Shown here piece after piece: positions 3,835-64,000 of a stretch of DNA of 64,000 nucleotides (position 1 is the stretch's first letter; every line of letters begins with the position of its first letter). The translations under genes and the position numbers were made by a program. The notes beneath the pieces were generated by a model. It saw only the letters and a program-made list of their open reading frames with translations. It made no database searches and was not told the DNA's origin. The DNA is from Verrucomicrobiia bacterium (lineage in GTDB: Bacteria; Verrucomicrobiota; Verrucomicrobiia; Limisphaerales; CAIMTB01), in the NCBI GenBank assembly GCA_019634625.1, contig JAHCBA010000017.1, positions 62,001 to 126,000 on the forward strand, in the 5' to 3' direction.

Positions 3835-3989
3835 GCATCCCCAAGTTGTCGGTGAGGAGGCAGCCAATCGGAGGGACGAGCTCCGCGAGTCCTCATCCCA
3901 ACGCACCCCATCGTTGCGGCCTCGTGGAACTCGGCCCTCCGAGGCGATGCCTCGCGAAGTTCGCGCCTCTACCCACAACTCCGGGATGC
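3835..3989 (+). repeat. Dispersed 155-bp repeat with terminal inverted repeats, copy A
   Basis: The copy begins GCATCCCCAAGTTGTCGG and ends with the imperfect inverse (ACAACTCCGGGATGC), so the two ends form terminal inverted repeats of roughly 25 bp. Internally it has small palindromes: GAGGC-GAT-GCCTC and CGCGAAGTTCGCG. It is nearly identical to copy B at 21039-21193, of the same 155-bp length. It occupies most of the 336-bp gap between tRNA-Gly and the E1/KAS III fusion gene. No open reading frame in it resembles a protein. It behaves like a small non-autonomous mobile element (MITE-like) or a structured intergenic repeat. Confidence 0.8.
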
Positions 3990-21038: not shown

Positions 21039-21193
21039 GCATCCCCAAGGTGTCGGTGAGGAGACAGCCAATCGGAGGGACGAGATCCGCGAGTCCTCAT
21101 CCCAACGCACCCCATCGTTGCGGCCTCGTGGAACTCGGCCCTCCGAGGCGATGCATCGCGAAGTTCGCGCCTCCACCCACAACTCCGGGATGC
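21039..21193 (+). repeat. Dispersed 155-bp repeat with terminal inverted repeats, copy B
   Basis: Same length and over 90% the same bases as copy A by eye. Ends GCATCC ... GGATGC. One internal difference (GCGATGCATCGC here, GAGGCGATGCCTC in copy A) changes the sequence but keeps a local palindrome. It fills most of the 274-bp gap between rlmN and the zinc-ribbon gene. Confidence 0.8.
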
Positions 21194-27248: not shown

Positions 27249-27403
27249 GCGATCGGGCGAGGGATAGGACGAGGGGAACTCCGCCAAGCGGTGCTTCGGA
27301 GGGCCGAGTTCCACGAGGCCGCAACGGTGTGGAGCGTTGGATTGAGGACTCGCAGAGCTCGTCCCTCCGATTCGCTGCCTCCTCACCCACAACTCCGGGA
27401 TGC
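27249..27403 (-). repeat. Dispersed 155-bp repeat, copy C (reverse orientation, left end diverged)
   Basis: Reverse-oriented copy ending GGGATGC at 27401-27403 on the + strand. The right two thirds match copies A and B closely; the left 50 bp are diverged, but the spacing gives the same 155-bp length. It fills half of the 333-bp gap between two genes; the rest shows nothing. Confidence 0.72.
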
Positions 27404-51394: not shown

Positions 51395-51964
51395 TCAGGG
51401 TGCCGAACTGGCTCCACGCGGTGAGCGGGCCGGGGATCGAGGGGTTCGGGTCGGGACGGAAGGAGTTCCCTCGTCGCCGGGTCGGGCGTTACGGCGCAGG
51501 GCGACGCCAGCGGGCCGGACATCCCGGAAATCGACCCTGGCGTGGACGGCTGGAAGGGCGACGAGGTGGTACGGTTGGGTGAGTTGCTGGATTTGGAAGG
51601 CACCTGGCTGTGGGCGGCGTTCTCCGACGAGGATTCGGAGCTGGTCTCCGCGCAATTCGACATCGACGATTTCGATGAAGTAGCCCCCGGTGGGCTGGGT
51701 GCCCATGCTGACGAAGAGGACCATTTCCCGATCGAAGTTGACGGCCGGGGGCAGTGCGACGCGGTCGGCCTGGGCGGCATGTTCGGCCCACAGGCGGAGG
51801 TACGGCGCCTCCGCATGGAGGACCACCCGGCGGGGTTCGCTGATGCCGCTGGTCAGTCCACGGGAGAGCGTCCGCCAGGTCAGTTTGTGGGGAGGGCCGG
51901 AAGCCGCGCAGCCGCTCAGCAGGCCGAGGATCAGCGCGAGGGAAAGGGAGGCGAGACGGCGCAC
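51395..51964 (-). CDS. Lipoprotein with PrcB-type C-terminal domain
   Basis: The protein has 189 residues with a lipoprotein signal (LILGLLSGC, Cys 19). Residues about 70-145 show the PrcB_C pattern: VNFDREMVLFVSMGTQPTGGYFIEI and QPYHLVALP. This domain is found in a subunit of a Treponema protease complex and in many stand-alone lipoproteins. A disordered tail follows. It is divergent from argH (120 bp). Confidence 0.78.
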   Translation of the reverse strand: MRRLASLSLALILGLLSGCAASGPPHKLTWRTLSRGLTSGISEPRRVVLHAEAPYLRLWAEHAAQADRVALPPAVNFDREMVLFVSMGTQPTGGYFIEIVDVELRGDQLRILVGERRPQPGAFQIQQLTQPYHLVALPAVHARVDFRDVRPAGVALRRNARPGDEGTPSVPTRTPRSPARSPRGASSAP

Positions 51965-52084
51965 GGGGCCATGCTGCCGCGAGAGCGGGCCGGTGCCAAT
52001 CCTGGCGGCATCGCGGTGGGAACTGGGGCGATGGGAACTGGGGATAGCCGACGCCGTCCGGTCCCGGCAGACTCGTCGCCTGAC

Positions 52085-53521
52085 ATGGCCACCAAACGTT
52101 CGTCCGTCGTCGCCCGGTCCGGGCGGTTCTCAAGGGGTCCCGCCGCCGAGGTGGCGGCGTTTTCGGAGTCCGTGGGGTTCGACTGGCGGCTATGGTCCCA
52201 GGACATCCGGGGTTCGATCGCCCATGCCCGGATGCTGGCGCGCATCGGGGTGCTTGAGGCGGAGGAGCGGGACGCGATTGTGGCCGGGTTGGAGGCGATC
52301 GGGCGGGAGATTGCCGAGGGAAGATTCGAGTGGCGGCGGGATCTCGAGGATGTCCACATGAACATCGAGTCGGCCCTGACGCGCCGGGTGGCGGCCGGGG
52401 CCAAGTTGCACACGGCACGATCCCGGAACGACCAGGTGGCCCTCGATCTGCGCTTGTGGCTGCGCGAGGAGATCGAGGCGCTGGACAGCGAACTCGCGGC
52501 GCTCCAGGGGAGCCTGGTGGAGCTGGGTGGGCGTCATGCGGACGTGCTGGTGCCGGGATACACGCACCTGCAGCGCGGTCAGCCGGTGTACCTGGCCCAT
52601 CATCTTCTGGCGTATGTCGAGATGGTGGCCCGGGACCGGGACCGGATGGCCGCCTGCCGGGAGCGGGCGAATGTCTGTCCGCTCGGCTCCGGAGCGCTGG
52701 CGGGAACGACCCTCCCGATCGACCGGGAATTCGTGGCCAGGGAGTTGGGATTTGTGGACGCGCGTGGCAGGGCGCGACTGTCCCGAAACTCGATGGATGC
52801 GGTGAGTGACCGGGACTTCGCGGTGGAATTCTGTGCGGCTGCGGCACTGCTGGCCGTGCATCTCAGCCGTTTGGCGGAGGATTCGATTCTGTGGGCGAGC
52901 GCCGAGTTCGGGTTCGTACGAATTGCAGACGCCTACACCACCGGGTCGTCGTTGATGCCGCAGAAGAAGAACCCGGATGTTGCGGAACTGACGCGAGGCA
53001 AGAGCGGCCGGGTGGTGGGGAATCTCATGGCCCTGCTGACGCTGCTGAAGGGGCTGCCGATGACGTACAACCGGGATTTGCAGGAGGACAAGGAGCGGGT
53101 GTTCGACACCGCGGACACGGTGCGGGCCTGTGTGCGGTTGATGGCGGGGATGCTGGCCAACACCGAGGCGGTTGCGGATCGGTGCGAAGCGGCGGCAGGG
53201 GATGCCCAATTGCTGGCGACGGATCTGGCGGATTACCTGGTGTTGCGTGGCATGCCATTTCGGGAGGCCCACCATGTGGTGGGCGAGGTGGTGGCCCTGG
53301 CTGAACGCAAGGGCCGGACGCTGGACCGCCTGGAGCTGGATGACTTCCAGGGGGTATCGCGGCGGTTCGGGCCGGATGTGAAGGAGGTGTTCGACCTGCG
53401 ACGGGCGATGGCCCGGAGGCGACAACCGGGGTCGCCGGGAACGACGGAGGTGGGTCGGGAGCTGAGGCGATGGAGGAGGATACTGTCGGCAGGGAAACCG
53501 GGGAGTCCTGCGGCGACGTGA
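52085..53521 (+). CDS. argH: Argininosuccinate lyase
   Basis: Last step of arginine synthesis: argininosuccinate to arginine and fumarate. The protein has 478 residues. The fumarase/ASL signature GSSLMPQKKNPD is around residues 286-297. N-terminal SRDIRGS..-type block SQDIRGSIAHARML and THLQRGQPVYLAH are present. The ATG at 52085 fits the usual length. Confidence 0.95.
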   Translation: MATKRSSVVARSGRFSRGPAAEVAAFSESVGFDWRLWSQDIRGSIAHARMLARIGVLEAEERDAIVAGLEAIGREIAEGRFEWRRDLEDVHMNIESALTRRVAAGAKLHTARSRNDQVALDLRLWLREEIEALDSELAALQGSLVELGGRHADVLVPGYTHLQRGQPVYLAHHLLAYVEMVARDRDRMAACRERANVCPLGSGALAGTTLPIDREFVARELGFVDARGRARLSRNSMDAVSDRDFAVEFCAAAALLAVHLSRLAEDSILWASAEFGFVRIADAYTTGSSLMPQKKNPDVAELTRGKSGRVVGNLMALLTLLKGLPMTYNRDLQEDKERVFDTADTVRACVRLMAGMLANTEAVADRCEAAAGDAQLLATDLADYLVLRGMPFREAHHVVGEVVALAERKGRTLDRLELDDFQGVSRRFGPDVKEVFDLRRAMARRRQPGSPGTTEVGRELRRWRRILSAGKPGSPAAT

Positions 53522-53703: not shown

Positions 53704-54945
53704 TCACCGGCGGGTGGGAAATGGGCGGGTTTGGAAGGTTTCGGATGCTGCCTCCCAGGCCGCCTGCAGATCCCGCAAGTCAGCGGGCACCAGGCTGCCC
53801 TCGCCCTCAATCCGGTGCCCCGTCAACAGGAGAGCGCTGCGTTCCAATTCGTCCGGGGATCGAGGATCGTAAGCCAGGCGTCGTTGCCACAAGGCTGCGA
53901 GTGCGTTCGGCGAAGGGAGGTGCCCGGCATCCGTGGGGTTCGGCGGGTCGAAGTCGATCGGCGATCCTGCGAGGGTCCAAGGCAGTCCCGAGGGCAACTC
54001 CCAGAGCCAGGCCCGCAGATCCTCCGTCACCGTCAGTAGCAGTGCTCCGGATTCTCCGAGAAATGCGATGTACCGGACGCCGGCTGGGTGGGGAAGCGGC
54101 GGCGAGACGACCTGCCCCGATTCAAGGTTCCAGACTCGGACCGAGTGGCCGCTGTCGAGAGTGGCGAGGTGCGGTCCGCTGGGAGCGAAGACCGCACCCA
54201 CGACCGTGCCGCGATGCCGCAGGGGCAGCGCGAGCGGTTGGCCCGTCCTGGCATCGCAAACCCGTGCGGTTCCATCGTAGCCGGTTGTGACCAACCGCGT
54301 GCCGTCGGGATCGAACGTGCCGAAGACGGCCAGGTCATCGTGACGAGGGGTCTCAACCAGGGGCTGCGCCGTGTCCATGCACCACATGCGACCCGCCCCA
54401 TCGTCGCTGACGGTCAGGAGGCGGCGTCCATCCGAGGCGAACGCCATGTGCCGAACGGCGGTATCCGGAATGGGGACAACCCCGAGGAGGTCGCCGGAGG
54501 TTGTCTCGTAACGATGGACATGGGTGCCGCCGGGGTCCGACAGGAAGATGACGGTCCCCAAGGTGTCCAGACTGATCGTGCGACTGCGGGGCGGTCCCTG
54601 CCAGGAGGCAGTCTTGCGGAGTCGTGGATACGGGTCATGGGGAGCAGGATTCGTCGCGGGCTCCGGATCGAAGACCGTCACCGTTCCGTCGGCGGGGCGG
54701 TAGAGGACGAGTCGTTGGGTCGTGGGGGCGAAGGCGTGGCGATCGGCTTCGACGAAGGTCTCGACTGGCAGGAGCCATTCGATGGTCCCCGAGAGGAGGT
54801 TGGCCAGGGCAGGACCGATTGCCGGCAGGCGCACCAAGGCGTACCGGGCATTGTCGCCGCACGCGTGGGTCTCCGCCAGTTCGGCGCGCCCGGCCGGTTC
54901 ATGCAGGGCCCACAAGCGGATCGATCCGTCGAGGCTCACAGCCAT
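53704..54945 (-). pseudogene. WD40 repeat C-terminal fragment of a broken kinase-WD40 gene
   Basis: About 413 residues of WD40 blades (CDARTGQPL, VWNLESGQVV) in one frame. It continues upstream beyond the first ATG with HILTHAELSLDGTRLM, which directly adjoins the C-terminus of the next fragment in another frame. Removing one base from the G8 tract at 55004-55011 joins the two frames. This is therefore the C-terminal end of one gene, not an independent gene. Confidence 0.8.
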
Positions 54946-54970
54946 CAGTCTGGTGCCGTCCAGGCTGAGT

Positions 54971-56300
54971 TCAGCGTGGGTGAGGATATGGGTATGGGGG
55001 ATCGGGGGGGGTGAGGGGGCGGCCCGTCTCGATGTCCCAGACGCGCGCGCGTTCTGCCGTGGCGGTCATGACGCGCCGCCCGTTGGCGGACCATCCCACC
55101 CAGACGACGGCACTGCGGCTGCCGGGGTGAGAAATCGAACGAACGGCCGTACCTCGACGCCAATCCCAAAGGCGGGCCGAGCCGTCCGACTCGGTGGCCA
55201 GGAGGTGACTGCCGGTCGGGTCAAAGCGTGCCTGACGGACGGAGCGTCCTGCGGTCAGTGTGGCCGCCAGGGTGGCGTCGGGGAGGTGCCATACGCGGAA
55301 GACTGGGGAGGCGCTGGCCGAGACGAAGTACCGGCCCGTCGGCGCGACTTCGACATGGGAGATCAGGCCCTCGTGAAGGGGGGTGACGGCCAGACGCCGC
55401 CCTGTGGCAGCGTCCCAGACGGACACCGTTCGATCACGGCCACCGCTGACGATCAGGCGGCCGTCCGGGCTCCAGTCGGCAACGAGGATGCCGGCCTCAT
55501 GGGACATGGGTGCACCGATGGGTTGGCCCGTGGTGGCACTCCAACAACGGATCGTGCGGTCAAGACTGGCCGTCAGGATGCGGGATCCATCCGGGCTGAA
55601 GCGCGCGACGCGGACCTCGTTGGCGTGGGGAAGGGGAGGGGACAGCAGGCGGCCGGAGGCGGTGTCCCAGAGGCGCGCGTCGAGATTGCCGGCGCTGACG
55701 AGGCGGGAGCCGTCCGGGCTGAAGTCCACCCTGAAGAGCAGGGTGAGACCCGCACCGGGATTGGCATGCGGGCGCGGCAATCCAATCTCGGCACCCGTAG
55801 CGGTGTCCCAAACCCGCACGGTGCCGTCATAGCTGGCCGTGGCGGCCCGGCTGCCGTCGGGGCTGAAGGCGGCGTGTTGAATGAGGCGTTGATGGAAGCG
55901 GATTGCCCGGAGGTCGGGCATCTCCTGGAGCACGGACGCGATGCGCGTGCGGTGGGCGAACTCGCGGGTGGAAGACCCGGCATCGGCGCGCAGGGCCTTG
56001 GCGAGCCAGGGGAGGGCGAAGACCGGGTCATCCGCCCGGGCGGCGGCGACGCCCGTGTTGACCATCATGCGAACGAGTCGGCCATGACTTTCGGCGGCCG
56101 TGTTGCGGGCCTCGTCGCGGGCGTCGCGGAGACGGAAGGCCAGGGCGGTGGACCCGAAGGCGGTGAGGACAAGTACCAGGGCCAGGGTGGAACTCAGAGC
56201 GGCGGTGAGGGGGTTGGTGCGAATCCAGGATCCGAGGCGTTCCGAGGCGGTGGGAGGGCGGGCATGGACCCATTCCCGTCGGAATTGGTGGGCTTGAGGT
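54971..56300 (-). pseudogene. WD40 middle fragment of the broken kinase-WD40 gene
   Basis: The open frame 54971-56068 gives about 365 residues of WD40 blades (SYDGTVRVWD, SGGRDRTVSVWD). In-frame sequence upstream of the first ATG continues with a transmembrane-like segment (ALSSTLALVLVLTAFGSTALAF) and the charged linker typical of kinase-WD40 proteins, back to about 56300. There the frame differs from the kinase part. It ends TPPDPPYPYPHPR at a premature stop. Confidence 0.8.
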
Positions 56301-56856
56301 CCCGGTGAAGAATGCCGCGCTGGTGGGCGAAGTGCGCGGCTCCGGCGACCTGGGCGAGGAACTGCGCGATGCGCTCCTGCTCGGGGCGGGTGGAAGCGGG
56401 CCAGCGGCCGTCCGCCAACTGGCGGGCGAGGTCCCCACCCTCGACGAGTTTCATGGCATAGAAGTGCCAGCCTTCGTGTTCGCCGAAGGCAAGGATGGGA
56501 ACGATGTTCGGATGCTCGAGGCGGGCGCTGGCACGTGCCTCGACGCGGAAGCGCTCAACCTGTTCCGGGCTCGCCCAGTGACCTGCGAGAATCATCTTTA
56601 CGGCGACCTCCCGGTCCAATCCCACCTCCCGGGCCCGATAGACCACGCCCATGCCTCCGCGGGCGATCTCGGGTCCGAGTTCATAGTCGCCAACACGCCG
56701 CCAGAACCCGGGACGTCCCGAAGGAGGGGCGTCGGACGGGTCCCCGGGGTTGGCGGGGTCCGGGAATCCCATCCAACCGAAGGTCAGGAGGCAGACTTCA
56801 CAGAGGCCCTCGAACCCGGGGTGGCCGAGCGATCGCCCACAGGTCGCGCAGATCAT
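56194..56856 (-). pseudogene. Ser/Thr kinase N-lobe fragment of the broken kinase-WD40 gene
   Basis: Begins at ATG 56856, overlapping the sigma-factor stop (ATGA). A CxxC zinc-knuckle (MICATCGRSLG, LCEVC) is followed by the kinase N-lobe: glycine loop ARGGMGVVYRA, the strand-3 block EVAVKMI, and HRDLKPTN. Directly after DLKPTN, around 56300, the expected DFG-to-C-lobe region is missing; the frame reads NSDGNGSM and on to a stop, while another frame continues with EWVHARPPTASERLGSW, the part normally found after the kinase domain. An internal deletion of some hundreds of bases with a frame change explains this. Confidence 0.82.
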
Positions 56857-57500
56857 GACCTCATCGTTTCGGGGTGACTTCGGACCGTTTCGACCAGATG
56901 GCGGAGTTCGTCCTCGACGTCCCCGGCGGGTCCCACGGTTTCCGCGATCCGACGCCGCAGGACTTCCTGAAAGCGTCGGCGGAGGCGGTGGACGGCGACC
57001 TTGACGACGCCGTCGGTTACGCCCAACGCGGCAGCCGCGGCACGATACGCCTCGCCCCCGCCTTCGCGGGAGAGGAAGCCTTTGATGGCCTCGAAGTGGG
57101 TGGGGTTGGGGGCTTCGTGACGGAGGGTTCGCAGTACGCTTTGGAGGAGCGCACCGGCCCACTCGCGGTCGAAGGCCACCTCGGGTGGCACGCCATCGTC
57201 GGGGGTGGCAAGGAACCGTTCTTCCGCGGCGGGCAGCAGGGAGTCGAGGGACAGGATCGCCTTGTGTCCGCCTCGCTGCTGGCGCCGGAGTCGATGCCAG
57301 TCATTGGCGAGAAAATGATTGAGGGCGCCCGAGAGGAAGGCGCGAAACCGGCCTCTTTCCCGTGTCACGTTGCCGAGGTCGCTCTTCTCGATGAGCGCCT
57401 GAAAGAAATCGTGCAGCAGGTCCTGGGCGTCGTGGGGCGGGTAACCACGGCGGCGAATGAGGGCGTACAGGGGGTAGCGATCGGAATCAGGACGCTCGTG
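56853..57500 (-). pseudogene. Truncated sigma factor (ECF-type, partner of kinase-WD40)
   Basis: Sigma-factor-like sequence from YPLYALIRRRGY onward: DAQDLLHDFFQALIEK, RGRFRAFLSGALNHFLANDW (sigma-2 like) and AALGVTDGVVKVAVHRLRRRF (sigma-4 HTH). The usual first 30 or so residues are absent; upstream of about 57500 the sequence is the start of a different gene in another frame. The stop overlaps the kinase start. Confidence 0.75.
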
Positions 57501-57670
57501 TAATTCAGGATCCCGTCCGGCGGCAGAGGGATCTCGGTGTTGGACGCGACGGTGAGCGCGCCGTCGGCACCGGTGCTGCCTGAATCGAATCCCTGCCCCG
57601 AAAGGCGGAGGACACCGGCCCATCCGACCACAGCGGCGATGAGGATGAGGAGCTTGTTTCTTATGTTCAT
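57365..57670 (-). pseudogene. 5' fragment of a secreted-protein gene, joined to the sigma-factor remnant
   Basis: ATG 57670 begins with a signal peptide (LLILIAAVVGWAGVL) and then DGALTVASNTEIPLPPDGI, an N-terminus typical of verrucomicrobial exoproteins. From about 57498 the same DNA is sigma-factor coding in another frame, so this frame's later residues are meaningless. It marks the deletion junction. The ATG lies 36 bp after the next gene's stop. Confidence 0.7.
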
Positions 57671-57705
57671 GAATGGGGATGGAGTTGGAGTGAGGGAAGC
57701 ACGTC

Positions 57706-59583
57706 TCAGCGAGGTTCCAGGCGCAGGAGGGGGCGCGCGATCGTCGTGTTCGGCGGGAGACCCCCCTTCTCGCCGGGGTGCGGCAGTACGAGTTCCACCC
57801 GCGGCAGAGCCATCACCGTGCTGCGTCCGAGGTCACCCGAATCGCCGAGGTGCGGCAGGACCAACTCCACCCGCGGCACGGCCGCCACCGTGCCGCGTCC
57901 CAGGCCACCCGAATCACCCCGTTCAGGTCGGACAAGCTCCACCGACGGCCGCGCCGCGGTCCCCATCGCCGGCCTTGACGCCGGGTCGAGAGGATCGCTG
58001 CCGGCGGTGACTTCCGCCTCGTCCCACCAACCATCGCCGTCGGTGTCCCTCAGGACAGGGCTGGTACCCAGCCAGAACTCGTCGATATCGCTGAGCCCGT
58101 CGGCATCCCGATCTTTCTCGCCGTCGTGAATCCCGGTGCTGCCGGTATCCGCCTGGGTGGGATCGAAGCCCAGCAGGATCTCGACTGCGTTGGGGATGCC
58201 GTCGCGGTCGAAGTCCTCCTCGCCATCGAGCAGGCCGTTTCCGTTGGTGTCGGCTTTGGTGGGATCCAGACCCATCGCAGGTTCGAGATGGTCCGGGACA
58301 CCATCCTGGTCCAGGTCCTCTCCAGGGATGGCCCAGAACGAGGATCGAAACGCCTCACTCATGAAGTTGCCTGCCAGGTCGGCGAGTCCAGGTCCGATCT
58401 CGACGCGGTAGCGTCCGGGCGGAAGCGGATCCGCGAACGCGGCGGTCAACGTCATCGTCTCGTCCGTGTACTCGACCCGCGCGACGGGAACCTCGATGTC
58501 GTCGCCCGTCCCGAACACCCAGTCGGGTCCTGCCTCGCTCAAACGCACGGAGCCCGGGCCGACCGAGGCGGGATCGAGGCGCTCGCTCATCAGGGCGGTC
58601 AACGACGTGACCGAGCCCAGGATGGCCTGGTGAGCCGGATGGGAGCGTCGCACGCGCGGGGGGGTGCTGTCCGGACTCAATCGCACCTCGTACCCGGGTG
58701 ACCAGGTGCTGTTCCCCCCGGTGTCGAGCGCCCGGACGCGCAACCGGAACTCGCTGCGGGAGGCACTGATCGCGGGAGTCGTGAAGCGGAACTCGAAGGG
58801 ATAGCTGCCGTCGCTGAAGGCAAGTCCGCCATCAAGGTAGAACTCAACGGTCCGTACCTGCACATCGTCCGCGATGTCAGCCATCACGATCGCTTCGAAG
58901 TTTTCGTCCGCCACGGCCGGGTCGAGCGGGAAGGTGGCACGAAGCGCGATGCTCGGGGCCTGGCGGTGGGTGTCTGGCTGGAGGTAACTGACCACCTGGA
59001 GGCCCTGGCTGTCGGCCACATAAGCCAGTCCGTTGAAGAGCGAGACGGCCCGCGGCACTCCGGGTGTGCGAAACGACGTGATGAACCGCGTGACGTCGGT
59101 CGGGTTCGAGACGTCGTAGAGCGAGACCATCAGGCTCTGCGGTCCGGCGAAGCTGCTGATCATGACGAGCCATCCGGAGCCGTTCGCGGCCAGATCATGC
59201 ACGGCCGCCTGGGTGCGTGGTGGGAGGCCGACGATGCGTGGCGCGGCCCGATCCCGAACATCGACGATGGTGTAACCCGTGAAGTAACCGACATAGGCGA
59301 ATCCTCCGCCCACGAAGAGCTTCCTGCCGAACTCCAGGGGCGCGACATGGCCCGCCACACGAACCGCTCCCAATAACCCGTCGCTCGGTGTGTCCGCCCG
59401 GTAGAGGCGAAGCGATCGGCCGGTCAGGACCACGAGCGTGTCGCGCTCGATCGCGATGGCTTCCACCGTCTCGTTGCCGGTTCGCGCCTGCTCCAGGATC
59501 ATGCCGGAGACGGCATCGATCACGTGCACGATTCCCCCGGCCCCGGCATAAATCCGGCTGCCAGCGACCGCGACCACGCGCAC
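57706..59583 (-). CDS. C-terminal part of a secreted protein with DxDxDG repeats (frame break from upstream part)
   Basis: Begins after a frame break near 59600, with AEPLRLSLGNVRVVAVAG and beta-propeller-like blocks (IYAGAGG, FAYVGYFTGYTIVDVRD). Ig-like and cadherin-like sections follow. Then thrombospondin-type Ca repeats: DLDQDGVPD, DTNGNGLLDGEEDFDRDG, DRDADGLSD and DTDGDGWWD. It ends with three degenerate 26-residue units (PRVELVLPHLGDSG). No own start with RBS is seen; a GTG at 59583 is possible. It is probably the 3' part of the gene at 59595. Confidence 0.6.
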   Translation of the reverse strand: MRVVAVAGSRIYAGAGGIVHVIDAVSGMILEQARTGNETVEAIAIERDTLVVLTGRSLRLYRADTPSDGLLGAVRVAGHVAPLEFGRKLFVGGGFAYVGYFTGYTIVDVRDRAAPRIVGLPPRTQAAVHDLAANGSGWLVMISSFAGPQSLMVSLYDVSNPTDVTRFITSFRTPGVPRAVSLFNGLAYVADSQGLQVVSYLQPDTHRQAPSIALRATFPLDPAVADENFEAIVMADIADDVQVRTVEFYLDGGLAFSDGSYPFEFRFTTPAISASRSEFRLRVRALDTGGNSTWSPGYEVRLSPDSTPPRVRRSHPAHQAILGSVTSLTALMSERLDPASVGPGSVRLSEAGPDWVFGTGDDIEVPVARVEYTDETMTLTAAFADPLPPGRYRVEIGPGLADLAGNFMSEAFRSSFWAIPGEDLDQDGVPDHLEPAMGLDPTKADTNGNGLLDGEEDFDRDGIPNAVEILLGFDPTQADTGSTGIHDGEKDRDADGLSDIDEFWLGTSPVLRDTDGDGWWDEAEVTAGSDPLDPASRPAMGTAARPSVELVRPERGDSGGLGRGTVAAVPRVELVLPHLGDSGDLGRSTVMALPRVELVLPHPGEKGGLPPNTTIARPLLRLEPR

Positions 59584-59594
59584 GTTGCCGAGGC

Positions 59595-61367
59595 TCAACC
59601 GAAGGGGTTCAGCAGGCAGCCTCGAATCGCCCCCATGCCTCCCCCCACCACGCACCGTCCACGGCCCCGTTGAGTGTTGTTCAGTCCGTTCGGTCCACCC
59701 GGGCATCCGCAACCGGAACCGCCACTGTGGCAGTCGTCGGGGGCCGGCGGACCTTCGGGACCGACGCCCTGGGAACCTGGCTGGACGCCATGCCAGCCGG
59801 GCTGCCGGATCCCAACCCCGGGTTCCGGCTCCAGGTATTCGCCATCCGTCGTGACGATCATGGGGCCCTGGATCTCCCATCGCCCGAGATCGTGATCGAA
59901 GCTCCAAAGCGCGCTGCGGGCACCCGGCGGCAACCGATCGCCGGTGGCCGGATCGGGCAGGTTCGGAAAGCGGACAGGAATAGGAACATCGAAGTTGCTC
60001 GGCCCGTCGGTCTGCACGGTGATCACAATGGGAAACGCGAGCCCGGGCGGAAGGGGTTCGGGCAGGCGGTCGGGGGGAACCGCGGCGATGCCGACGCGTC
60101 CCCCGCGCGTGCCGTCGTTGGCGAAGAGGGTATTGGCAGGAATCGTGATCGAAACCCCGGCCAGGGCGGGGTTGTTTTGCACAACGTGCTCCGGGAAGGT
60201 CACCACGGTGTCTTCCGTGGCACTGACCGCACGCAGCGCGTCGGAGGGGATCCACGGCAGGTAGATCTCCCCGGTGCCGCCGGCCAGGTTGTCGGTGTGA
60301 CCCGCCAACGTCTCCCACGCCTTGCCCACCACCGGGTAATAGCCACCGTTTGGCCACTCACTGCCCACCGCGGTGCGCCCATCCACATGGACAAAGAACC
60401 GTCCGGCCGGAGCCGGATCGAGGGTGAATTTCCCCGTCGCGTCGGTGGTGGTCCGCAGCGATTCCTCCGCCCCGTCCACGGTGACGGTAACCCCTTGGAG
60501 CGGACGCACCGTGGCGGAGGCGCCGGGACCGACTCCAGGCACCGGTTCCGAGGCGAACACGCGACCGTGAATCGCGGTGCCCGGGATGGGGGTGGTGCTG
60601 AAGGTTCGAAATCGGAGGCGCGCCACCCCGCCCGGGACGCCGTCGCCATCGGCATCCACCTCCAAGCCCTGCTCGTCCAGCACGCCCGTGGCATCGAAGG
60701 TGACATGGACCTGCGCCGAGGCCGGGAGGTTCTCCAGGAAGAAGAGTGACGCCGTGCGCCGATCGGATGACAGTTCGACGCGCGACAACAGGCGACGCCC
60801 GAGCGCCTCGGCATGAAAGCGGTCGAGCGTCAGGATCGTGCCCGGTGACAGGGCCCCGGAGAACCGTAGAAGGCACTCCCGCGTCACCGACACTCCGTCT
60901 TCCCCATCCACCGGCGACGTTTCGACGAGGGTCGTCAATCCACCACCGACGAGGCGCAGACGGAAATACCGTCCGTGCCCCGAAGCGGGCAAGGCGACGA
61001 CATGGCGGCCCCCGATCAGGCTCGGCGACCGGGAAGCCGGCTCCCATTGGGCACGGGATCCGAGTTCCGCCGACTCTTCCAGCACGACCCCGCCGGCATC
61101 GCCTGGCCAGGAAAGCCGGAGCGCGCTCGGAAGATCGAGTTCGACCGCGATACGGGGAATCTCGGCGGACACCGACGCGATCGAAACCAGCAGGAGCGCC
61201 GCCGCGGCAACCGTGGAGTGCGCGATCCCGTCAAACGCCGTCCGCCTGACCCGGTCCGCCGGGTGCGGGCTGTCCGACCGCGTGTGGCCAGCGAAGGCGT
61301 CCGTCGGGGTCCCGTGGGACCGGAGAAGGCGCACCCGCTCGGTTACTGCGGCAACCCGTTTCACCAA
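59595..61367 (-). CDS. N-terminal part of a large secreted protein (stops near a frame break)
   Basis: The frame covers 590 residues with a hydrophobic signal segment (VAAAALLLVSIASVSA) around residue 55; a start inside the first 50 codons is possible. Domains: an Ig-like start, FN3-type YFRLRLVGGG, a Ca-binding DADGDGVPGG, and a carboxypeptidase-regulatory-like domain GRVFASEPVPGVGPG. The end is Gly/Cys-rich and stops GCLLNPFG. The next in-frame sequence of the expected long protein continues in another frame (gene part at 57706). Either a frameshifted gene or an assembly error. Confidence 0.65.
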   Translation of the reverse strand: MVKRVAAVTERVRLLRSHGTPTDAFAGHTRSDSPHPADRVRRTAFDGIAHSTVAAAALLLVSIASVSAEIPRIAVELDLPSALRLSWPGDAGGVVLEESAELGSRAQWEPASRSPSLIGGRHVVALPASGHGRYFRLRLVGGGLTTLVETSPVDGEDGVSVTRECLLRFSGALSPGTILTLDRFHAEALGRRLLSRVELSSDRRTASLFFLENLPASAQVHVTFDATGVLDEQGLEVDADGDGVPGGVARLRFRTFSTTPIPGTAIHGRVFASEPVPGVGPGASATVRPLQGVTVTVDGAEESLRTTTDATGKFTLDPAPAGRFFVHVDGRTAVGSEWPNGGYYPVVGKAWETLAGHTDNLAGGTGEIYLPWIPSDALRAVSATEDTVVTFPEHVVQNNPALAGVSITIPANTLFANDGTRGGRVGIAAVPPDRLPEPLPPGLAFPIVITVQTDGPSNFDVPIPVRFPNLPDPATGDRLPPGARSALWSFDHDLGRWEIQGPMIVTTDGEYLEPEPGVGIRQPGWHGVQPGSQGVGPEGPPAPDDCHSGGSGCGCPGGPNGLNNTQRGRGRCVVGGGMGAIRGCLLNPFG

Positions 61368-61579: not shown

Positions 61580-64000
61580 TCAGGGGGGGGGGCGGGGCCG
61601 GAGGTGCAGGAGTTCGTCCAAACGGGCCTTCACGCGGACGATCTCGGCGACGCCGACGGTCCCATCCGTGCAACCCCAGCCCGCGCGGTTGCCGTCGCTG
61701 GAGAAAAGGAAGCTATCCCGAAGCAGGACGCTGTCGGAATCGATGGGCAGGTCCGGAGCTTTGCCCATGGTGGCGCGCAGCAGGACGAAACCCTGATTGT
61801 CCAGATGAGTGGCGTAGGCGTTTCCGCCGGGCCCCAGAGCGATGCAATCCCCGATGGCGGGGCCGGGGCTGCCATCCGAGAGGGCGACGAGGCGCGTACT
61901 GAGGGCAGGACGCCAACCGGGCACGGCGGCCCATTGGCCCAGGGGATCGACGCGGAGCACGTGCCAGACGTGTTCCCGTCCGAATTCGGTGCGCCATAGG
62001 GTCTTTGCGGTCTGGGTGTGGACGATGCGGAACCCATCGCTGGACCGGCCGGTCTCCTGGGTCAGCAGCACCAGGCGCTGGGTGGTGGGGTCCAGGGTCA
62101 GGGCTTTGGTCGAATAGGTGTCGTCGGTCTGTTGCAGGTCCGGAACGATCGGAAGGGTTCCGTCTGAATCGAGTCGGTACATCTCCCAGCGGCGAGGTTC
62201 GCCCTGCCGTTCGGGGAGTCGAACGCGCGCGAGAACAAGGATGCCGTCGGGGCGAAACGCGAGGCGACTGGAGTAGGCTCTGGCGGGAGGGAGAGTCCAT
62301 TGGCGAGTTGCTCGGCCCGACTCGATGTCGAAGAGGGTGACGTCGGCGCTTCTGGCATAGGCCAGGCGGAGTCCGTCGGGATCGAGGGCAACGCCGCTGC
62401 CATCGGCGAAGTCGCCGGGTGGGACGTCGAAGAGGCGCAGCAAGCGTCCATCGGGGATGTCCCAGACCCCGATGCGCCATTCGTCCGAGAGGGCTGCGAT
62501 GCGGTGGCCGCTGTGGGAGAAGTCCACATGGCGCACGGAGGCGGTGAGGCCGCGCAGTCGCTGGATGCCCCGGTGAGGTTCGATGGCCCAGAGGCAGACA
62601 TCGGGAGCGGCATGTTCTCCTGTGGTTCCTGAAACCACGCGGGTTCCGTCAGGGCTGACGGCCAGCGCCCGGGTACGGCCGCTGTTCTCGAGGGTCCAGA
62701 GGAGGGGTTGCCCGGTGGCGATGTCCCAGTAGCGGACGCCCATTCGTCCGGCCGAGGCGAGGGTCGTCCGGTCCGGGAGGCAGGCGAGGGCCGTAACTTC
62801 CCATGTGGCTCCGCGGGCAAACGAGCGGGGCAGTCCGGAGGTCAGATCCCACACGACGATGCCGGTGCCGCGATGGCCGGCTGCCAGCAACCAGGGACGG
62901 CGTGGGGAAAAGGGCTGGGAATCGTGGGAAGGCGTCATCCAGGGGACACGGGCATCCTCGCCGAAGGCCAGGGCTTGAACCGGGCTTGGAGCCACGGCCG
63001 CCGGCAGGTGCCACACGATCTCGAAGGGATCGAGGCGCAGCACCAGGATCGAGCCCGAGTGTTGTCCCGCGGCCAACCATTGGGCGTCCGGGGAGAACGA
63101 CAGTGCGGTGGCGGATTCGGGAAGGACACCCCGTTCGCGGCCGGTCCGGGTTTCCCACACGACCAGCCGGCTCCCTCCGGATCGGGAGAGGGAACCGGCT
63201 GCCAGGGCGCCATCCGGACTCAGCGCAAAGACCGGTCCGGTTTCGCTGACGGCGGCTTCTCCCGGCTGAAAGGGATAACGTCCCAGCCTCTCGCGTGAGA
63301 TGGCGTTTCGCAGGACAAAGGACTGGTCTTCGATCCGGAGAAGGACGGGGTCCCCGGAATGGGTCCATGCGGGGCGTCCGTCACCGACGAGGGGCAGGGG
63401 GTGGCGGGTGGTGTCTTCCTGGAACAACCAGGCTGGTTCGTCGCCGTAGCCAGCCAGCAGGAGACGTCCGTCCGGCCCGAAGGCCGCCGAACTGACCGGG
63501 GTGCCGCGCCAGTGCGAGGTCAGGCTGGCGTCCATGCCCGACAGGGTGGCGATGGCCTGACGGAGGACGAGAGGATCGCCTCGCTGACGGGCGGCGGCCC
63601 GGGCGCTTTGCCAGTCGGTGGCGGACCAACCGGCGCGGCGGTCCTGAATTCGGGAGAGCTTGCGATTTTCGAGCTGGGCGAGGCGGGCGCGATCGGCTTC
63701 ACGGGCGCGGCGGTACTCCATCAGCAGTCCGGCGAGGACCAGGACGAGGATTGGAACCAGGATGAGGGAGACCAGCCTGGCCCGACGATAGAGGGATTCG
63801 AATCGCCGGAGCCGGAGGACCGAGCGGTTGCCGAGGAGAAGTTCGAGATCTTCGCGCAGGCGGGTGGCGGTTTTGTAGCGCAGGCGCGGATGGGGTTCGC
63901 AGGCGCGGTCGCAGATGGCGCGGAGTTCGCTTCGATGCCGTCCGGCGCGGGAGTCTGCGGGTGGGTCAGGGTCCGGGGGATCTCTGGGGAAGTCTTCGAC
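61580..64000 (-). CDS. Kinase-WD40 type membrane protein, C-terminal part (5' end outside window)
   Basis: Open to the window edge (806 residues visible). The upstream end shows the kinase-domain tail (ELRAICDRACEPHPRLRYKTA), the linker LREDLELLLGNRS, a transmembrane helix (LVSLILVPILVLVLAGLLM), then a WD40 propeller of many blades to the end (SATALSFSPDAQWLAAGQHSG, SVRHVDFSHSGHRIAALS). Such proteins are signalling or scaffold proteins paired with sigma factors in Verrucomicrobiota. Unlike its neighbour at 53704-56856, no frame break is seen in the visible part. 61368-61579 before it holds nothing recognisable. Confidence 0.82.
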   Translation of the reverse strand, partial: VEDFPRDPPDPDPPADSRAGRHRSELRAICDRACEPHPRLRYKTATRLREDLELLLGNRSVLRLRRFESLYRRARLVSLILVPILVLVLAGLLMEYRRAREADRARLAQLENRKLSRIQDRRAGWSATDWQSARAAARQRGDPLVLRQAIATLSGMDASLTSHWRGTPVSSAAFGPDGRLLLAGYGDEPAWLFQEDTTRHPLPLVGDGRPAWTHSGDPVLLRIEDQSFVLRNAISRERLGRYPFQPGEAAVSETGPVFALSPDGALAAGSLSRSGGSRLVVWETRTGRERGVLPESATALSFSPDAQWLAAGQHSGSILVLRLDPFEIVWHLPAAVAPSPVQALAFGEDARVPWMTPSHDSQPFSPRRPWLLAAGHRGTGIVVWDLTSGLPRSFARGATWEVTALACLPDRTTLASAGRMGVRYWDIATGQPLLWTLENSGRTRALAVSPDGTRVVSGTTGEHAAPDVCLWAIEPHRGIQRLRGLTASVRHVDFSHSGHRIAALSDEWRIGVWDIPDGRLLRLFDVPPGDFADGSGVALDPDGLRLAYARSADVTLFDIESGRATRQWTLPPARAYSSRLAFRPDGILVLARVRLPERQGEPRRWEMYRLDSDGTLPIVPDLQQTDDTYSTKALTLDPTTQRLVLLTQETGRSSDGFRIVHTQTAKTLWRTEFGREHVWHVLRVDPLGQWAAVPGWRPALSTRLVALSDGSPGPAIGDCIALGPGGNAYATHLDNQGFVLLRATMGKAPDLPIDSDSVLLRDSFLFSSDGNRAGWGCTDGTVGVAEIVRVKARLDELLHLRPRPPP

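Follow-up and report, generated by a model that had tools for sequence, protein, structure and literature searches.

Membrane Ser/Thr kinases with arrays of WD40 repeats are known from Planctomycetota and their relatives; in the available part of PMC11032199, they combine a kinase domain with C-terminal WD40 repeats, and many kinases are encoded per genome. ECF sigma factors regulated by neighbouring Ser/Thr kinases include the groups ECF43, ECF59 and ECF60, and in kinase-regulated groups uncharged residues replace DAED, as stated in the excerpted text of PMC8103513. Bacterial pseudogenes are characterized by lesions relative to intact homologues (PMC2916853, in the portion accessible). Literature joining a kinase, WD40 repeats and an ECF sigma factor in Verrucomicrobia was not found.

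Here, we analysed a stretch of 64,000 nucleotides (the window) on contig 17 of a Verrucomicrobiia genome, a draft of 6.74 Mb in 88 contigs. As described for Planctomycetota, one of its genes encodes a kinase domain followed by C-terminal WD40 repeats, and the genome holds many kinases (48 Pkinase matches genome-wide); unlike the kinases described there, the window kinase lacks the DFG motif and the C-lobe, and its frame is broken twice. As with ECF43, ECF59 and ECF60, a sigma-factor-like gene is located directly upstream, its stop codon overlapping the start codon of the kinase (ATGA); unlike in these groups, it reads DAQD and not an uncharged replacement, and its N-terminus is gone. The DAQD matches DAE or DAQ in several sigma-factor paralogues of the same genome. 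Like bacterial pseudogenes, the genes carry lesions relative to intact homologues, and no categorical difference from them was seen, the lesions in the window being dense and lying in adjacent genes. The comparisons described below make recent decay of a sensor cluster that was no longer needed a quite probable explanation.

Genomes and homologues used for comparison

An earlier note on this DNA had proposed comparing the kinase-WD40 gene with an intact orthologue, and had named as counter-evidence to its reading an orthologue of the same layout. Neither was found in the four other genomes of the same genus: the first WD40 half had no match at E ≤ 1e-40 in any of them (for one genome, scoring covered 150 of its 212 first-look candidates), and the second half had weak matches at the level of paralogues (best E 2.0e-27). 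The genus sample consists of four relatives, one of them 82% complete, plus the genome itself, and the family is represented by the same five genomes; the per-genome counts add up to 231 kinase matches across the genus. A scan of named genomes revealed 54 loci with best segments of 25–44% identity, which were rejected as orthologues, being only distantly similar. Among the matches listed, a layout showing the split form to be functional was found neither in the genus nor in the named-genome scan. In the surroundings of argH, which was found in all four same-genus stretches (one of 3.3 kb and one of 12 kb), none of 14 other window proteins was matched at E ≤ 1e-5. The argH frame in the window itself (51542–53521) has 659 codons, and similarity to it in 19 other genomes begins only at residue 148–190; the true start codon is probably located further downstream.

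Since no intact orthologue was available, paralogues served as yardsticks. For this purpose, DNA of 37 stretches around most of the 48 Pkinase matches was used, in which 32 places with an HRD motif were detected, distributed over 31 open frames with lengths between 346 and 1,909 amino acids, a filter that is blind to genes cut before the motif.

Organization of the locus

All features of the kinase-WD40 gene were found where the earlier note had placed them, and they lie on the minus strand, which the note had not given. Together with the upstream genes, the following features were distinguished:

53704–55008, minus strand: second WD40 half, frame 2, 434 codons plus stop
54971–56281, minus strand: linker, partly hydrophobic (by eye), followed by the first WD40 half; frame 1, ending with the stop at 54971
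55004–55011, minus strand: C8 on the coding strand (G8 on the plus strand), meeting place of the two WD40 frames
56282–56283, minus strand: deletion point in the kinase, with about 403 bp from the DFG motif to the end of the C-lobe gone
56284–56856, minus strand: N-terminal part of the kinase, with zinc-ribbon-like start (by eye), N-lobe and catalytic loop to HRDLKPTN
56853–57476, minus strand: remnant of a tentatively ECF-like sigma factor without N-terminus
57477–57484, minus strand: approximate fusion point of the secreted-protein start to the sigma-factor-like remnant
57485–57670, minus strand: truncated gene for a small secreted protein, reduced to its first 62 codons
57706–59592, minus strand: C-terminal part of a large secreted protein (Big_5, Big_7, TSP3_bac)
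59593–59753, minus strand: zone holding a third deletion and frame change
59754–61367, minus strand: N-terminal part of the large secreted protein (Big_5, carboxypeptidase-regulatory-like)

The kinase frame comprises 191 codons from ATG at 56856 to AAT at 56284. It contains an N-lobe and the catalytic loop HRDxKxxN in the form HRDLKPTN, where the kinase stops, as had been noted before; the Pfam Pkinase match covers only positions 1–128 of the 263 model positions (E 5.2e-19), and neither this match nor the alignment with nine paralogues revealed a DFG motif or a C-lobe. After HRDLKPTN, two bases (56283–56282) are followed by RREWVHARPPTASERLGSWIRTNPL from 56281 in a different frame, so that the frame change reported near 56300 is confirmed and fixed at this position. 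The new frame continues into the linker and the WD40 repeats up to the stop at 54971. The second WD40 frame, open through 55008 and ending with the stop at 53704, meets the first one in the G8 tract, in agreement with the earlier assignment of the halves to different frames. Both halves were recognized as WD40 repeats (PF00400, E 2.2e-41 and 7.6e-17). Kinase, linker and WD40 repeats therefore do not form one continuous frame, the breaks being located at 56282–56284 and 55004–55011.

In the alignment with the nine paralogous kinase frames, the loss appeared as one block that starts just past the catalytic loop and ends with the C-lobe, with 135 residues missing relative to six paralogues, 136 relative to one, and 162 and 164 relative to two of a longer type. 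From the block size and the two leftover bases, the deletion amounts to about 403 bp, which accounts for the frame change at the junction. Only two of the 48 Pkinase matches lie in a short frame and break off within the first half of the domain, namely the window copy and one on contig 11. The latter (L121:3101–3847) is a second truncated kinase with a match to Pkinase positions 2–83 only, and its kinase-like sequence stops at the onset of a dispersed palindromic repeat of about 107 bp. Copies of this repeat, 85–92% identical to that on contig 11, are present in the window at 3837–3942, 21041–21146 and 27295–27381, and further ones occur in many other fetched stretches among the matches listed.

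Lesions in the upstream genes

Damage extends beyond the two lesions noted before. At about 57476–57485, the sigma-factor-like gene is fused to the start of another gene. Similarity of the window copy to its paralogues begins at YPLY in 17 of 18 paralogue matches and at residue 1 in the weakest one (L124), and all 17 paralogue places listed extend further upstream than the window copy, with a recognizable stretch of about 30 residues that is absent from it. The window gene has no complete N-terminus with a start codon of its own; in its place are 62 codons resembling gene starts on contigs 49 and 11, and hence the sigma-factor gene is joined to a cut-off gene for a small secreted protein. The copies on contigs 49 and 11 continue for 345 and 327 residues, respectively, beyond the shared PPDG motif. 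Judged from the lengths of the paralogues, roughly 1 kb must be missing at this fusion. The designation as ECF-like sigma factor is tentative, because the match to the NCBIfam model TIGR02937 (E 8.5e-6, 25.5 bits) is below the curated cut-off of 42.9 bits and no Pfam match was obtained; it relies mainly on paralogues near kinase genes, which are 30–49% identical.

The large secreted protein further upstream is broken as well (59593–59753), again a lesion in addition to the two noted before. Its two parts lie in different frames (open frames 59595–61367 and 57706–60357). The protein, whose window copy carries Ig-like and TSP3 domains, belongs to a family of ten in the genome, the copy at 57706–61367 and nine other places with open frames of 1,506 to 3,345 residues. 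All nine are continuous through the break and match both window parts (weakly for the second part in the L188 copy, with 26% identity and 74 bits), and all have several hundred residues of their own between these matches. Measured against the contig 11 and contig 49 copies, 535 and 621 residues, respectively, are left uncovered, minus the window remainder at this place. A third deletion, accompanied by a frame change, is therefore located near 59.6 kb. On contigs 11 and 49, the large-protein copy is followed by a small secreted protein of the kind that is cut off in the window.

Evaluation of alternative explanations

The idea that the gene is phase-variable, with the C8 run turning the WD40 half on or off, has in its favour that the frame change does sit in an eight-base run. 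However, the kinase is already destroyed 1.3 kb upstream, so that no tract state could give an intact product or bring back the DFG motif and C-lobe, and such runs occur elsewhere too: 42 G/C runs of at least 8 bases were counted in 444 kb including that of the window, which leaves 41 others, and 21 are located in coding segments, 20 of them outside the window gene. For these two reasons, the possible phase variation raised in the earlier note is not supported, and we assign it a negligible chance. The same runs bear on sequencing error. Eighteen of the 20 other coding runs are away from places where two segments of one strand adjoin in different frames, which makes systematic homopolymer error unlikely; the remaining two (L155:3438 and L159:3909) are at such a place and could be either similar lesions or ordinary neighbouring genes. 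Separately, the next kinase-WD40 gene (61580–64000) has a run of ten G (61583–61592) within its last codons at the 3′ end, where a change in length would alter only its tail.

A local assembly artefact, with stretches dropped, the C8 run perhaps misread and the genes intact in the cell, would fit the draft state of the genome in 88 contigs, the high density of breaks, and the three sharp and close junctions, at which no dispersed repeat was found in the fetched DNA. Nevertheless, we consider it unlikely. The best other DNA matches to 56200–59900 in the genome (26 matches, from 40 scored of 182 first-look candidates) are pieces only 64–84% identical, with no long exact repeats seen among them, which, with the lack of repeats at the junctions, speaks against repeat-driven misassembly. 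In the fetched DNA, the kinase junction matches, on one side, only other kinase genes, and the other two junctions match only themselves. By eye, ATTCCGA is present at two of the three junctions; it is absent from the third zone and was rejected as a shared motif, as its occurrence is probably due to chance. The families of the sigma factor and the large protein are also intact elsewhere in the same assembly. When 19 other stretches, each of 20 kb, were scanned with a codon model, six direct same-strand frame switches were found in five loci. Four of them have run-ons of 33, 89, 21 and 7 nt, and the other two form a pair in L162 (4,108 and 143 nt) that leads back to the same frame; in these 380 kb outside the window, there is thus one switch with a run-on of at least 50 nt (L155, 89 nt) besides the L162 pair, again arguing against an artefact. 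In the window, the scan detected one switch (58 nt), which is that of the kinase, and it assigned the sigma-factor stretch to the opposite strand. Since it missed three of the four window lesions, it is a weak control and gives a rough genome baseline. The gene families are the better control, with 17 of 17 sigma-factor places and nine of nine large proteins unbroken. The switches at L155:18294 and L162:8562–8799 may themselves be other broken genes or ordinary neighbours.

If the pieces worked as separate proteins, they would be a pseudokinase with an N-lobe only and one or two WD40 proteins. Each WD40 half is indeed open for more than 420 codons without a stop, and the second one has an ATG at 54945. 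Young decay may alone account for such open frames, however, and the kinase piece runs into out-of-frame sequence right past the catalytic loop, the upstream sigma-factor gene is cut too, and orthologues at E ≤ 1e-40 were not found in any of the relatives from the genus; we therefore regard functional fragments as very unlikely. Even less credence, as an extremely unlikely case, is given to a remodelled cluster in which a kinase-free linker-WD40 protein would be made as a decoy for the partners of the intact paralogues, with the C8 run tuning the length of the WD40 part.

Probable decay of the sensor cluster

The comparisons support the pseudogene interpretation of the earlier note, and the two deletions upstream strengthen it, while its phase-variation part is not supported. 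In total, a region of about 8 kb contains three deletions and a shift of a single base; the deletions are deduced from paralogues that are mostly 25–60% identical. Relative to intact homologues, in this case paralogues and not orthologues, the lesions are disabling. Apart from the density of the breaks, the locus looks like ordinary recent gene decay and not like a new switch.

Before the decay, the cluster would have comprised genes for two secreted proteins, one large and repetitive and the other small, for a sigma factor of the ECF-like type, and for a membrane Ser/Thr kinase carrying a WD40 half. By comparison with paralogues, one deletion removed about 0.4 kb of the kinase, another the rest of the small secreted gene together with the start of the sigma factor, and a third several hundred codons of the large protein; the fourth lesion is the single-base frame change in the C8 run. 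In the intact paralogues, by analogy with known systems, the WD40 half would serve the kinase for sensing, and the partner sigma factor would be the target of the kinase. As both the sigma factor and the kinase are incomplete, no signalling would be expected from the window cluster. Presumably, this lineage had no need of the cluster; one of the lesions may have abolished its use, and more could then have accumulated without counter-selection.

The fragment frames contain no internal stop in 7,290 nt. With 2.4% of single changes making a stop, this corresponds to at most 0.017 neutral substitutions per site, a rough upper bound that assumes equal mutation types and no selection and is taken from frames that were picked for being open. 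Accordingly, either the decay of the cluster began recently or some of its parts remain in use; some fragments could still be under selection.

Conclusions

The biological weight of the finding is small, as it concerns one of many kinase-WD40 paralogues that would have decayed along with its neighbours. For annotation, it advises caution, because several truncated or fused genes are found here and each of them might be given a name. The locus also provides an example of a whole sensor cluster, including a sigma-factor-like gene, that was seemingly lost together.
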